From: Ignavibacteriales bacterium
Lineage (GTDB): Bacteria; Bacteroidota; Ignavibacteria; Ignavibacteriales; Melioribacteraceae
Assembly: GCA_016177735.1 (NCBI GenBank)
Contig: JACOUS010000012.1
Span: 1-50,545, forward strand
Length of the DNA: 50,545 nucleotides
Direction of reading: 5' to 3'
Positions 2,408-10,176 of this stretch are shown here, piece by piece; position 1 is the stretch's first letter; every line of letters begins with the position of its first letter. The position numbers and the translations under genes are program-made. The notes below the pieces were generated by a model that worked only from the letters and a program-made list of their open reading frames with translations, did not search any database and was not told where the DNA came from.

Positions 2408-4213
2408 ATGATAAAATCACACGGACATAAATTTCACATACCGGTTCTTGGCGTCGGCTTCTCGGTTGATGCGCCGGTTAAAGTTGCAAGGTTTGGAATA
2501 TCATCCGTCATCTCGCTTGTGGATGATACATTAATGGAACAACTGCGGAAACATTACCTTGAAAAAAGCGGCAAGCAATACATACAGATAACAGATGCCG
2601 AAGAAGATCCGAGAGCAAAAAGAATTACTGCCTACCTGAACACGATTAATCAAATAGTACAACAGCAATTTGAGAAACTGAGAAACTCGACTTTCGAATT
2701 TGGAAGCGAGTTGAATAAATATTTTGAAATGCTTCCGGATTTTTCGGAATTGAAGAAACGTTATAAAGAAATGCTCAACTCAAGCGATGAAAGAGAGTTG
2801 GAAAGTTTAAGAGACTATCTTCGTAATAATATATCGCACGGTTCCATCGATGTAAACATTATGACGAAGCTTGATAAAGCAAACTACAATTCAAAAGGCG
2901 AGATACTTCCGGCGGAATATAATGATGCACATGCGGCATTGCGCGGTTTTGCTTTGAGCGAACTCGAAGGTTCGATTATTTTTTCTGCCGGCATGAATCC
3001 GAAACTTTACAGCTACATGGAAACTTTCAAAGATTTTTTGCCCGGTGCTGAAGGCAGTTTTAAAAAGAAGATCGTAATTAAAGTCAGCGATTTCCGTTCG
3101 GCATTAATTCAAGGAAAATTTCTTGCGAAGAAAGGATTGTGGATCTCGGAATTCCGGATCGAATCGGGATTGAACTGCGGCGGACATGCATTTGCAACAG
3201 ACGGACTGCTGATGGGTCCGATTCTCGAAGAATTCAAAAATAGAAAAGACGAATTGTTGACAACGCTGAAAGAGATGTATCTGCAAGCGCTTATTAAAAA
3301 AGAAATTCAAGTTGATGAAGGAAAATTAAATATTGATATCACGGTTCAAGGCGGTGTCGGGAAATCGTCGGAACAAAATTTTTTAATCAGGCAATACGGA
3401 GTAAAATCCGTTGGCTGGGGAAGTCCGTTTCTTTTAGTGCCGGAAGTGATGAATGTTGATGATTACACTTTGCAAAAACTTTGTGATGCCGGCGAAGACG
3501 ATTTTTATTTAAGTGATATTTCTCCTTTGGGCGTGCCGTTCAACAATTTACGGGACAATAGTAAAGATATAGAAAAATGGCAGAAGGCTGAGAACGGAAA
3601 ACCCGGAAGTGCTTGCACGAAAAAATTTCTGTTATCAAATAAAGAATACTCCGATAAACCGATCTGCACCGCGTCAATCACTTACTTAAAAAGAAAAATT
3701 GCGGACTTAAAAGCGGGCAATCTCGATGAAAGTGATTTGAAAACTGAAATCAACAAAGCAGTTGACAAAGCTTGTCTTTGTGAAGGGCTTACTGTTCCGG
3801 CGTTGATTGTCAACAATATTGAATCGCCAAAGCAGAGCCGCGCTGTTTCGGTCTGTCCGGGTCCAAACCTTGCCTATTTTTCCAAAACCGCAACGCTCAA
3901 AGAAATGATTGATCACATTTACGGACGGATAAATTTAATTACACATACGAACCGCCCGAACATGTTTGTAAAAGAATTGAGTCTTTATATTGATTATCTG
4001 CAGAGAAAAATTGAAGACGGCATGAAAAATTTTTCATCGCAAACCGAGACTTACGTTGATACTTTCAAAACAAATTTAATGGAAGGGATAGATTACTATA
4101 AAAAACTTATTCCTGAAATTACCGAAGAAGCAGAAAGTGTAAGAGAAAAGATCAGAGAAGACTTGGAAGTGCTGGAACAAAGACTAATGTCGTTAGCATT
4201 GGTTTCAATATAG
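2408..4213 (+). CDS. Conserved protein of unknown function, possible TIM-barrel fold
   Basis: 601 residues with no signal peptide or membrane segment, so it is cytoplasmic. Distinct conserved-looking blocks are SHGHKFHIPVLGVGFSVDAP (4-23), GLNCGGHAFATDGLLMGP (about 256-273), DITVQGGVGKSSEQNF (about 309-324), VGWGSPFLLVPE (about 335-346) and YLSDISPLGVPFNNLR (about 368-383). The Gly-rich loops spaced along a single domain, and the GWG-PFLL-PE pattern, recall FMN-binding TIM barrels such as nitronate monooxygenase or glutamate-synthase-type enzymes, but this is only a visual impression. There is a CACLCEG-like Cys cluster (KACLCEG, near 457) and CPGPN further on. The last 110 residues are helical, charged and coiled-coil-like. 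No operon partner. Function not assigned. Confidence 0.75.
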   Translation: MIKSHGHKFHIPVLGVGFSVDAPVKVARFGISSVISLVDDTLMEQLRKHYLEKSGKQYIQITDAEEDPRAKRITAYLNTINQIVQQQFEKLRNSTFEFGSELNKYFEMLPDFSELKKRYKEMLNSSDERELESLRDYLRNNISHGSIDVNIMTKLDKANYNSKGEILPAEYNDAHAALRGFALSELEGSIIFSAGMNPKLYSYMETFKDFLPGAEGSFKKKIVIKVSDFRSALIQGKFLAKKGLWISEFRIESGLNCGGHAFATDGLLMGPILEEFKNRKDELLTTLKEMYLQALIKKEIQVDEGKLNIDITVQGGVGKSSEQNFLIRQYGVKSVGWGSPFLLVPEVMNVDDYTLQKLCDAGEDDFYLSDISPLGVPFNNLRDNSKDIEKWQKAENGKPGSACTKKFLLSNKEYSDKPICTASITYLKRKIADLKAGNLDESDLKTEINKAVDKACLCEGLTVPALIVNNIESPKQSRAVSVCPGPNLAYFSKTATLKEMIDHIYGRINLITHTNRPNMFVKELSLYIDYLQRKIEDGMKNFSSQTETYVDTFKTNLMEGIDYYKKLIPEITEEAESVREKIREDLEVLEQRLMSLALVSI

Positions 4214-4243
4214 AATAAAGCCTGTTAATTATCGAAGCAACTC

Positions 4244-4294
4244 TCATTCGATGTAAACGCGCTGCACACGTGCACTGATGCTTGTGAAATATTT
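4244..4294 (-). pseudogene. Vestigial 3' end of an alanine racemase gene
   Basis: On the minus strand 4294-4244 reads KYFTSISARVQRVYIE followed by TGA. The intact alr downstream ends EILTNINTRVPRVYIG and stop. Nucleotide similarity covers about 50 nt and is lost upstream of 4300. The fragment lies on the far side of the brnT/brnA pair, in the same orientation as alr, so the pair is flanked by a diverged and an intact alr 3' end. It looks like a remnant left by insertion at, or replacement of, the alr 3' end. Confidence 0.65.
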
Positions 4295-4341
4295 AAGTAA
4301 GACAAAAATAAATCTGTTTGTCTCCGATACTTGTGATTCAA

Positions 4342-4362
4342 TGTATACTTTTATAATATACA
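4342..4362 (+). promoter_or_regulatory. Promoter/operator of brnT-brnA
   Basis: TGTATA (4342-4347) and TATACA (4357-4362) form an inverted repeat with a 9-nt spacer. A TATAAT -10 box (4352-4357) overlaps it, with a weak TTGTGA (4331-4336) upstream at 15-nt spacing. The -10 ends only 8 nt before the ATG at 4366 and no ribosome site is visible, so the transcript may be almost leaderless. BrnA-family antitoxins repress their own promoters, which fits an operator here; the pairing is inferred. Confidence 0.5.
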
Positions 4363-4365
4363 GAT

Positions 4366-4686
4366 ATGGAAGACATAATATTTGAGAGATACGAAGGATT
4401 CCAGCGGGACGAAGGCAATTCCTTAAAGAATTGGAAAAAACATAACGTAACTATTAGCGAATGCGAACAAGTATTTTTTAATAAACCGATGATTGTTTCG
4501 AGCGATGAAAAACATTCTGACTCCGAAAAAAGATGGTTTCTTCTTGGCAGAACCGACTTGGATAGAAAATTATTTCTTGTTTTTACCTCACGTGGAAATC
4601 TAATCAGAGTAGTTTCTGCAAGAGATATGAATAAAAAAGAAAGAGATATATACAATGAAGAAATTGAAAAGCATACCGAAATTTAA
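4366..4686 (+). CDS. BrnT-family toxin (ribonuclease)
   Basis: 106 residues. The C-terminal half, with KRWFLLGRTD, LFLVFTSRG and LIRVVSARDMNKKERDIY, matches the BrnT toxin fold: an RNase related to RelE, ending in the conserved 'R-ISAR-A-K-E-Y' helix. The N-terminal third is longer and less typical (QRDEGNSLKNWKKHNVTISE), but the 'N--KH-V---E' element of the family is preserved. It overlaps the downstream antitoxin by 32 nt, which supports coupled expression. BrnT cleaves RNA to stop translation and is neutralised by BrnA. The pair sits between an alr remnant and intact alr, converging with the latter. Confidence 0.8.
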   Translation: MEDIIFERYEGFQRDEGNSLKNWKKHNVTISECEQVFFNKPMIVSSDEKHSDSEKRWFLLGRTDLDRKLFLVFTSRGNLIRVVSARDMNKKERDIYNEEIEKHTEI

Positions 4687-4930
4687 AAATGAAAAGGACG
4701 AACGGGAATTTTGGTTTAAAGCCGATTCTGCCCAGTATGTAGATTGGAAAAAATCTAAACTGGCATCTTTTCCCAAATTAAAGCCATCAACAACAACTAT
4801 TTCACTTCGTTTGCCGGAGTCACTATTGAATGAATTGAAAATTGTCGCAAATAAAAGAGATGTACCCTATCAATCGCTGATTAAAATATTTTTAAAAGAA
4901 AGAGTTGACCGCGAACGGAGGAGTAATTAA
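4655..4930 (+). CDS. BrnA-type/CopG-family antitoxin
   Basis: 91 residues. The first half (KNEKDEREFWFKADSAQYVDW) resembles the toxin-binding arm of BrnA/CopG-type antitoxins, and the second half (TTISLRLPESLLNELKIVANKRDVPYQSLIKIFL) is a ribbon-helix-helix DNA-binding domain with the typical beta strand TTISLRLP. It starts inside the toxin gene. The stop TAA (4928-4930) overlaps the stop of alr on the opposite strand by 4 nt, so the genes converge tail to tail. It should neutralise the upstream toxin and repress the shared promoter. Confidence 0.82.
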   Translation: MKKLKSIPKFKNEKDEREFWFKADSAQYVDWKKSKLASFPKLKPSTTTISLRLPESLLNELKIVANKRDVPYQSLIKIFLKERVDRERRSN

Positions 4931-6078
4931 CCAATGTAAACGCGCGGCACGCGTGTGTTAATGTTGGTTAAAATCTCGTAAGGAATTGTGCCCGCCCATT
5001 GCGCAAGTTCTTCAACTGTAATTTTATTTTGCCCGTCACTTCCGATCAAAATAGTTTCATCGCCGTTGTAAGCAGAATCGTTTTCAATATTTGCAACTAT
5101 CTGATCCATCGAAATTGTGCCGACAACCGGGTAACGCTTCCCGTTCAGCAGAACTTCAGCTTTGTGCGTCATGCTTCTCAAATATCCGTCACCATATCCA
5201 ACCGGAACGGTAACGGCGCGAATGTTGTGATCGCTTTTCCAAGCGGAGCCGTATCCAACCGGATGACCGGCTTTTATCACTTTGAAATAAACAACAAGTG
5301 ATTTCCACATGAGTGCCGGTTTTACTTCAATTGTTTTTTCTGTTTCGAGAGAAGGATAAACTCCGTAGAGCATAATTCCCGGACGTACCATATCGAAATT
5401 TGCTTCGGGCATTTGCAGTATTGCGCCGGAATTTGATGCATGTCGTACCGGCAGTTCAATAGAATGCTTACCATAAAAACGGAGTACTTCGTTAAATCTT
5501 TCGAGCTGAAGTTTTGTGTAACTCAAATCGCGCAATTCGGAATTTGCAAAGTGTGTGTAGATCCCTTCCGCGTTAATATTTTTGTACTTGAGCGATTCTT
5601 CAATAAATTTTTCCGCACTGTAATAATGAACGCCGATCCGCTCCATTCCGGTATCGATTTTCAAATGTACCTTTGCTTTGACCTTCATTGATGCGGCAAT
5701 CTGATCTATTTGTTTCAGCTTTTCAACGGAAGATGCCGTGATTGTTAAATCGTGTTTGAGGAAAAGAGGAATCTGATTTCCCCAAATGCCGCCGAGTACG
5801 AGAATTGGAATTTTAATTCCTTGCTCGCGCAGCAAAATTCCTTCTTCAATCACCGCAACGCCGAGATAATCTGCATTCAAATCTTGCATTAATTGTGCGG
5901 TGCGTACAAGTCCGTGTCCGTAAGCGTTGGCTTTCAGAATCGGCATAACTTTAGCCGGTGCGGCGTGCGCTTTTATTTTTTCAAAATTATTTTTCAGGGT
6001 GTTCAAATCAATTTGAAGATGTGTCGGGCGGATGATTTCATCAACGCTTATTACCGGGTGATTGAAAAAGCTGCTCAT
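4927..6078 (-). CDS. alr: Alanine racemase
   Basis: 383 residues, the usual length for Alr, from ATG 6078; an in-frame upstream start at 6153 would add 25 residues with no family counterpart. The PLP-lysine motif is seen as PILKANAYGHG (Lys49), followed by the family blocks HLKIDTGMERIGV, NSGAI, MVRPGIMLYG and PVGYGDGYLRS. The enzyme interconverts L- and D-alanine for peptidoglycan. It ends ISTRV-like (INTRVPRVYIG), and this 3' end is partly duplicated at 4244-4294. It is divergent from the FMN-binding lipoprotein gene and converges with the brnA-type antitoxin. No fusion with a MurF domain, which is common in Bacteroidota relatives. Confidence 0.95.
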   Translation of the reverse strand: MSSFFNHPVISVDEIIRPTHLQIDLNTLKNNFEKIKAHAAPAKVMPILKANAYGHGLVRTAQLMQDLNADYLGVAVIEEGILLREQGIKIPILVLGGIWGNQIPLFLKHDLTITASSVEKLKQIDQIAASMKVKAKVHLKIDTGMERIGVHYYSAEKFIEESLKYKNINAEGIYTHFANSELRDLSYTKLQLERFNEVLRFYGKHSIELPVRHASNSGAILQMPEANFDMVRPGIMLYGVYPSLETEKTIEVKPALMWKSLVVYFKVIKAGHPVGYGSAWKSDHNIRAVTVPVGYGDGYLRSMTHKAEVLLNGKRYPVVGTISMDQIVANIENDSAYNGDETILIGSDGQNKITVEELAQWAGTIPYEILTNINTRVPRVYIG

Positions 6079-9680: not shown

Positions 9681-9979
9681 ATGATATATAATTTTGAATG
9701 GGATCCGCGTAAAGCCAAACAAAATTTTTCTAAGCACGGCGTAAGTTTGAATTGGCGGCAACAATATTCAAGGATCCTCGAGCATTATCTATGTATGATG
9801 AAATGCACAGTGATGTTGAAGAAAGATGGATAACAATTGGATCTTCACAAAATGGAAACTTGCTTGTTGTTGTTCACACATTTAAGGAATTGAAAAAAGA
9901 TTTATCTGTTATCAGAATTATTTCTGCAAGAAAAGCTACCAAGAAAGAAACAAAACAGTATTTGGAAGTAGAGTCATGA
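9681..9979 (+). pseudogene. BrnT-family toxin gene with one frame break
   Basis: ATG 9681 gives FEWDPRKAKQNFSKHGVS, the typical BrnT N-terminus, and the frame is then lost at the T-run 9746-9748, which is one T short. The adjacent frame continues from TTG 9752 as LAATIFKDPRALSMYDE, RWITIGSSQNGNLLVVVHT and IRIISARKATKKETKQYLE to the TGA at 9977-9979. With one added base the gene would be a standard-length BrnT. All family motifs are intact, so either an inactivated toxin with a retained antitoxin or a homopolymer sequencing error. It overlaps the antitoxin ATG by 4 nt. Confidence 0.82.
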
Positions 9980-10176
9980 AAAAACAATATGATTTTTCAA
10001 AAGGCGTACGAGGTAAGTTTTATAGAGAGAATCTAAAAATCAATTTGCCGATTTATCTCGACTCCGAACAACTTGAGTTCATTCAAAAACTGGCGGCGAA
10101 GAAAAGAAAAGATGTCAAAACCGTTGTTAATGATCTTATAAAAACCAATATGAAATTGGCTCAGGTAATTCAATAA
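9976..10176 (+). CDS. Antitoxin of the second BrnT-type module
   Basis: 66 residues starting at ATG 9976, overlapping the toxin stop (ATGA). It begins with KKQYDFSKGVRGKFYRE, a start frequently seen in small antitoxins paired with BrnT toxins, and continues with a short strand NLPIYLD and a helix pair SEQLEFIQKLAAKKRKDVKTVVNDLIKTN that fits a ribbon-helix-helix domain. It would bind the toxin and repress the operon. It differs clearly in sequence from the first module's antitoxin (4655-4930), so the two pairs are not recent duplicates. Confidence 0.78.
   Translation: MKKQYDFSKGVRGKFYRENLKINLPIYLDSEQLEFIQKLAAKKRKDVKTVVNDLIKTNMKLAQVIQ

Follow-up and report, generated by a model that had tools for sequence, protein, structure and literature searches.

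Background

Homology-facilitated illegitimate recombination is known from transformation studies, where foreign DNA is inserted through one homologous and one non-homologous junction. Another kind of insertion, with long target duplication, was reportedly described for restriction-modification genes by Nobusato et al. in 2000 and by Furuta et al. in 2010. In the passages of Mruk and Kobayashi that deal with it, the insertion of some restriction-modification systems goes with target duplications that are long (in the order of 100 bp) and variable (PMC3874152), and passages of a further paper also treat this type of insertion of restriction-modification genes (PMC3031569). For Helicobacter pylori, the corresponding passages describe insertion with long target duplication as possibly site-specific (PMC4978471). 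Also in H. pylori, a passage of another study reports that the PabI restriction genes are replaced by a putative toxin gene, hrgC, flanked by remnants of 78 and 88 bp (PMC4615327). The passages of the open-licence literature available on long target duplication do not report it for toxin-antitoxin pairs, and the terms 'toxin-antitoxin' and 'homology-facilitated illegitimate recombination' were not found together in the open-licence literature. The locus bears on the way in which chromosomal toxin-antitoxin pairs move when no mobile element carries them.

The locus under study lies in a stretch of 50,545 nt (the window), which is contig C8 of a genome of 3.87 Mb in 44 contigs. Here a brnT/brnA pair (brnTA) stands between the intact alr gene and a degraded copy of the alr 3′ end. 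We regard this layout as a variation on a type of insertion already described, not as a new kind of element, and it is part of a wider pattern. Insertion with long target duplication is matched in that an addiction-type module lacking a transposase stands between long, variable direct copies of its target, and in that relatives have empty sites. However, the cargo here is BrnT/BrnA where the described cases carry restriction-modification genes, the clear protein-gene cases here copy a gene 3′ end, and the pooled differences between copies look allele-like more than like those of a clean duplication. With homology-facilitated illegitimate recombination the locus shares the pair of junctions assumed in our favoured model and the foreign DNA beside a conserved gene, but the cases here are natural between-species fossils that retain a stretch of the target in two copies. 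Integron cassettes, and genomic islands placed at the 3′ end of a gene, likewise restore the gene end and leave the displaced copy at the far border, whereas here there is no integrase between the copies and neither a constant core nor a single target. The hrgC case, as given in the passage on it, is similar in that a putative toxin gene is flanked by short remnants of displaced genes, but those genes were destroyed, while here the neighbour is intact and its tail alone is doubled (PMC4615327).

The locus and the degraded alr end

The features of the locus are as follows.

2408..4213, plus strand: g601, a conserved gene of 601 aa, function unassigned, oriented convergently to alr in relatives and bordering the site on the left
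4244..4294, minus strand: degraded alr 3′-end stub, 16 codons and stop
4342..4362, no strand: near-palindrome TGTATACTTTTATAATATACA, directly ahead of brnT, kept in G001 and G105 (read from the sequence and, for G001, an alignment)
4366..4686, plus strand: brnT, BrnT-family putative ribonuclease toxin (PF04365, E 3.6e-23, 82.1 bits against a cut-off of 34.5)
4655..4930, plus strand: brnA, CopG/BrnA-type antitoxin (PF12441, E 8.9e-32, 110.1 bits against a cut-off of 28)
4927..6078, minus strand: intact alr, alanine racemase (TIGR00492, 383 bits)

By both domains, brnT and brnA are predicted to form a BrnT/BrnA type II toxin-antitoxin pair, of which the toxicity and the neutralisation are predictions as well. 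In NCBIfam, the BrnA model gave 43.2 bits on brnA, short of its cut-off of 60, and BrnT had no match. Like other BrnT/BrnA type II modules, the pair has the toxin gene first, an overlap (4655-4686) with the antitoxin gene downstream, and BrnT and CopG/BrnA-type domains; in itself it shows nothing unusual. The near-palindrome ahead of it is probably a promoter or operator. The brnA stop codon overlaps the alr stop codon, and the terminal 51 nt of the intact gene (4927-4977) form the second copy of the repeat; this gene is the one alr found by protein search in this genome. Between the two alr-end copies there are, besides short overlapping frames, no genes other than brnT and brnA, and no integrase was found there. 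Matches to g601 are present in 63 of 79 genomes of the family.

The stub reads KYFTSISARVQRVYIE followed by a stop, and the intact alr ends with EILTNINTRVPRVYIG followed by a stop; 8 of 16 residues are equal on a count by eye. At the DNA level the stub is identical to the alr end of the window in 31 of 45 or 32 of 51 nt, the stop codon being excluded, and its best match among relatives is the alr end of G108 (36 of 51 and 33 of 45 nt). A profile of alr ends was built from the last 51 nt of alr in 14 relatives, excluding the alr of the window itself. On this profile the stub scores 24.2 bits, a value reached by none of 5000 dinucleotide-keeping shuffles of the 152-nt gap (mean -26, maximum 4.1). 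In the 50-kb window, taking both strands, the stub ranks second and alr alone scores higher. A direct-repeat test on the pair of copies gave 21 against a shuffle maximum of 16. The initial annotation had pointed to a match between 4294-4244 on the minus strand and the intact alr end about 680 nt away; the profile score bears this out, the measured offset is 683 nt, and the 17-codon match survives the statistical comparison with shuffles. The region 4244-4294 is thus confirmed as a degraded copy of the alr 3′ end. That the 17 codons match by chance and are no alr relic agrees with just 8 of the 16 residues being equal, but is refuted by the profile score against the shuffles, the second-best place in 50 kb and a strand and position right for an alr end, so that the probability left to it is negligible.

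The g601-alr site in relatives

We found g601 and alr together and convergent in 18 stretches including that of the window, which leaves 17 relatives; in the remaining relatives g601 is absent or located elsewhere. Of the 17, 11 have an empty site with nothing between g601 and alr (G035, G036, G048, G049, G102, G103, G104, G108, G109, G110 and G113), the alr end adjoining the g601 end. These empty sites show brnTA to be an insertion, with the stub at the place expected for the native alr end. The view that a duplicated alr end flanks brnT/brnA and marks a small insertion therefore holds, since the stub is real and the site is empty in 11 of 17 relatives. Comparing the alr 3′ regions, as the initial annotation had proposed, brought out sites with nothing inserted, sites with different inserts and one locus with two layers; alr-like sequence does stand at the position of the fragment where there is no insertion.

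In G001, of the same genus, brnTA is at the same spot and the brnA-alr junction spacing is equal to that of the window by eye, so the two probably go back to one event before their split. A hidden stub was undetectable in G001, the alignment of its gap to that of the window with the promoter removed giving 47 against a shuffle mean of 39 and maximum of 59.5. Beside alr in G002 there is an apparent decayed remnant of brnTA (by eye), and in G106, G107 and G116 other genes are present between g601 and alr. On the alr-end profile no stub above chance was seen in the gaps of these four. The alr of the window is closest to that of G001 (81%). The alr tree, which was read without the row G051 (wrong orientation, long branch), resolves the placement of G000 (the genome of the window) and G001 poorly. 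The BrnA proteins linked to alr group together in their tree (3 of 14 rows, support 97/96).

Searching with a 34-aa alr tail, which misses worn stubs such as that of the window, gave as clear stubs only the two of G105 at E <= 10 in the 79 family genomes; at E <= 1 in 164 genomes of the order, only these two were clear among the matches listed. A weak alr-tail match of 18 residues lies in a 33-aa open frame at G026:C62:57249-57302 and is possibly another stub. There is also a weak alr-tail match in a short 59-aa frame on G160:C43.

A layered insertion in G105

The order in G105 is g601, alr stub 1, an insert of 1.76 kb, alr stub 2, brnTA and the intact alr. By tblastn, stub 1 has 57 nt (19 codons) and stub 2 has 99 nt (33 codons); the first half of brnT is missing. 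This arrangement records two inserts in series, placed by successive events in order and each with its alr stub, and more than one event has therefore occurred at the g601-alr site. The 1.76-kb insert has two related genes with a weak carboxypeptidase-regulatory-like domain, below the Pfam cut-off. Related genes of this weak domain are present in the same g601-alr gap in G105 (L112, about 3080-4830, a tandem duplicate) and in G107 (L120, about 1990-2740). By eye, the junction of insert and stub 2 in G105 resembles the junction of insert and alr in G107, and so a lineage with such an arrangement exists.

Over 35 nt (alr nt 1051-1085) stub 2 shows no difference from the intact alr; it then diverges, with 0, 1 and 10 differences at codon positions 1, 2 and 3 beyond the identical tract. 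Identity followed by divergence in this manner looks as it would at a crossover tract. Sliding identity over alr nt 400-1090 is 0.87-0.89 to the sister species against 0.74-0.76 to G000/G001, and the Alr protein groups with the relatives of the species (support 83/99, the fork being drawn open). On these comparisons, most of the G105 alr body, from about nt 250 to 1085, is to be read as native. The first 200 nt of this alr (L112) are 70-77% identical to the sister species and most of the remainder 78-93%, a difference that hints at a second recombination where the gene begins. We also considered a foreign origin for the final 60 nt of the intact alr, with stub 1 as the native tail. This was dropped, as neither tail is clearly closer to the sister species: to G104 and G109 the intact tail has 48 and 49 of 57 positions equal and stub 1 has 50 and 48, the intact tail and stub 1 sharing 44 of 57.

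Direct repeats around other toxin-antitoxin loci

In the family, the direct-repeat test flagged 6 of 26 brnTA loci, including those of the window and G105. It may be added that the threshold of the repeat survey was 24, under which the repeat of the window itself (21) falls. For species genomes the survey used the best 80 of 574 BrnA loci. With 600-nt flanks, 7 of the 80 were dropped for short flanks; of the 73 that could be tested, 10 were positive, compared with 5 among 219 segments drawn at random from the same loci (Fisher p 6e-4). With 900-nt flanks, 14 of the 80 were dropped; long repeats were found in 11 of the 66 left and were absent in 55.

The family sets were likewise the best-scoring loci, namely the best 30 each for ParE, HicA, glyoxalase and PIN. 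With 900-nt flanks, long repeats were found at 4 of 21 BrnA, 6 of 23 ParE and 5 of 26 HicA loci, after dropping 1 of 22, 7 of 30 and 4 of 30 loci respectively for short flanks. When N-rich flanks were excluded, the repeat run gave 5 of 22 for ParE and 5 of 23 for HicA. The random-segment controls of the family gave 4 of 312 (one an N-run), 3 of 312 and 3 of 312. There were no repeats in 28 alr-centred control segments, and no long repeats in the best-scoring sets of 27 glyoxalase loci and 26 VapC/PIN loci. Flanking repeats are therefore common for some toxin-antitoxin pairs and were not seen for VapC/PIN, and this null result rules out an enrichment shared by all toxin-antitoxin types. Several repeats at ParE and HicA loci lie between genes, and these may be of the dispersed kind instead of copies of a target.

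Of 25 listed repeats (24 distinct loci, as L189 and L064 are by sequence the same locus in G111), 12 have the stop codon of an intact gene on one side and its tail on the opposite side; the other 13 have no convincing intact gene end in the repeat. The duplicated gene ends are given below, named by Pfam where there was a match.

G000 and G105: alr
G111: GNAT acetyltransferase
G042: methyltransferase
L170: FAD oxidoreductase
L193: [2Fe-2S] subunit
L236: AIR carboxylase
L251: Omp85-type barrel
L288: AAA/DUF4143 protein
L276: epimerase
L300: no Pfam match

The same layout of gene end and cassette thus recurs at other genes. The toxin-antitoxin pair may be oriented either way relative to the duplicated gene, and repeat lengths run from about 40 nt (the window) to 250 nt. 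The repeats are about 500-900 nt apart at several other toxin-antitoxin pairs. The size of the unit, which had been called unusually small, would be so for an integrated island but is ordinary for this pattern. The methyltransferase gene of G042 also occurs in two genomes of the same genus, G053 and G097, in which BrnA has no match.

Pooling 11 pairs of intact end and stub, we counted 27, 26 and 93 differences at codon positions 1, 2 and 3, that is a third-position share of 0.64 (93 of 146). A neutral copy made in place is expected to have a share of about 0.44 by our own estimate under equal mutation rates, from which the observed value differs with a binomial p of 8e-7 (6e-4 if 0.5 is expected). 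The pairs are mixed in quality, the weak ones being the HicA pairs L276 and L288 and the pair of the window; on removing these three the share is 0.65. The pair of the window taken singly has 1, 3 and 5 differences by codon position over 39 nt, its stub being short and worn. One of the tail copies at L300 has an in-frame stop, and the L251 stub also contains a stop. From the pooled concentration at third positions, most of the divergence looks like that between working genes of different lineages, as in diverged alleles.

How the insertions may have formed

We favour recombination with related DNA that is anchored in the gene tail and has an illegitimate second junction, and consider this the probable course of events, with considerable room for error. 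In this model brnTA would have entered the g601-alr gap from a related bacterium already carrying it behind alr. A homologous crossover in the conserved 3′ part of alr would let the incoming DNA supply a working alr 3′ end, the other junction would be illegitimate or the product of a small integrating circle with an alr tail on it, and the stub beside g601 would be what is left of the tail that the recipient had. The pair would then be kept partly by addiction to the toxin, whereby loss of the antitoxin gene is punished, as known from the biology of such pairs; as brnTA would be deleted by recombination between its two flanking repeats, addiction would work against such loss. Neither neighbour is harmed by an insertion that lands within the tail, and this would account for the survival of intact genes together with stubs. 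The identity of the donor, the position of the crossover, which tail is native and the role of addiction are parts of the model that we infer. The comparisons do show the empty sites, the stub, coding-type differences in the pooled pairs, more than one event at the site and the recurrence of the layout at other genes. Speaking against the model are the undetectable stub in G001, which shares the insertion, the lack of a recognisable one in G002, G106, G107 and G116, the near-equal match of the two G105 tails to the sister species, the many BrnTA loci and all VapC pairs without repeats, and the 13 listed repeats without a convincing gene end; the worn stub of the window itself favours neither allele.

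Among the alternatives, a true long target duplication would have a transposition-like or break-repair process copy 50-250 bp of target, the outer copy decaying afterwards. The structure, the repeat lengths and the addiction-module cargo agree with what the relevant passages review for restriction-modification genes (PMC3874152, PMC4978471), the 35 nt over which stub 2 and alr agree in G105 could be a remnant of duplication, and the stub of the window is without a clear coding bias. But a non-coding stub should lose that bias, and the pooled differences lie at third codon positions, so we regard this process as unlikely, though deserving of serious attention.

Site-specific integration at the alr 3′ end, which the initial annotation had offered, would rely on a recombinase acting in trans, as for islands and integron cassettes. 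Its classic mark is a restored gene whose 3′ end is present twice; L186 and L235 are also integron-cassette-like by a presumed attC motif, and L163 and L231 have tRNA-like sequence. Yet an integrase is absent between the copies and there is no constant core, since the target genes, the repeat lengths (about 40 to 250 nt) and the stub lengths (57 and 99 nt in G105) all vary. This explanation is accordingly unsupported for the locus and improbable.

Xenologous replacement of the whole alr with brnTA hitch-hiking, the other process suggested at the outset, is hardly more credible. It would leave the native alr tail beside g601, it could be accommodated by the poor resolution of the alr tree at G000 and G001, and the first 200 nt of the G105 alr are foreign-looking. 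But in G105, the sole testable case, the native body of the gene and its grouping with the relatives of the species argue against replacement of the whole gene, and the alr of the window is closest to that of its own genus. A replacement limited to the alr 3′ end fits.

Extending recombination anchored in the gene tail beyond alr, we put forward tentatively, as an idea somewhat more apt to fail than to hold, that small toxin-antitoxin pairs, having no recombinase among their genes, spread with the conserved 3′ ends of their neighbours serving as homology arms, the repeats being diverged alleles and addiction holding the structure. If this is true, repeats read until now as target duplications would be pairs of diverged alleles, and simple recombination between them could remove the cassette. 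The scar of gene, cassette and gene tail is readable, and offers a way to date, count and polarise insertions in any set of genomes. Also, the third-codon test tells recombination with a relative from transposition-like duplication, which bears on the older restriction-modification cases.

Further loci

In the window, a second and diverged BrnT-like gene occurs at 9681-10176 with its frame apparently broken (ORFs 9681-9833 and 9752-9979). It lies by eye between conserved GNAT-like and cutC-like genes with no flanking repeat, and the small ORF after it (9976-10176) has no Pfam match. Elsewhere, brnTA at L163 is flanked by tRNA-Thr and a partial second copy of it (3487-3550 and 4309-4371). At L231 (1567-1608 and 2329-2370) brnTA is flanked by copies of what by eye is a tRNA-like 3′ end; ARAGORN found no tRNA at these repeats. 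At L186 and L235 brnTA lies between repeats resembling integron attC sites, and these may be integron cassettes. At L300 a HicA pair lies between near-identical copies of a gene tail (745-859 and 1755-1869, 107 of 115 nt) that encode MINIHPQRWNDKLIPW.
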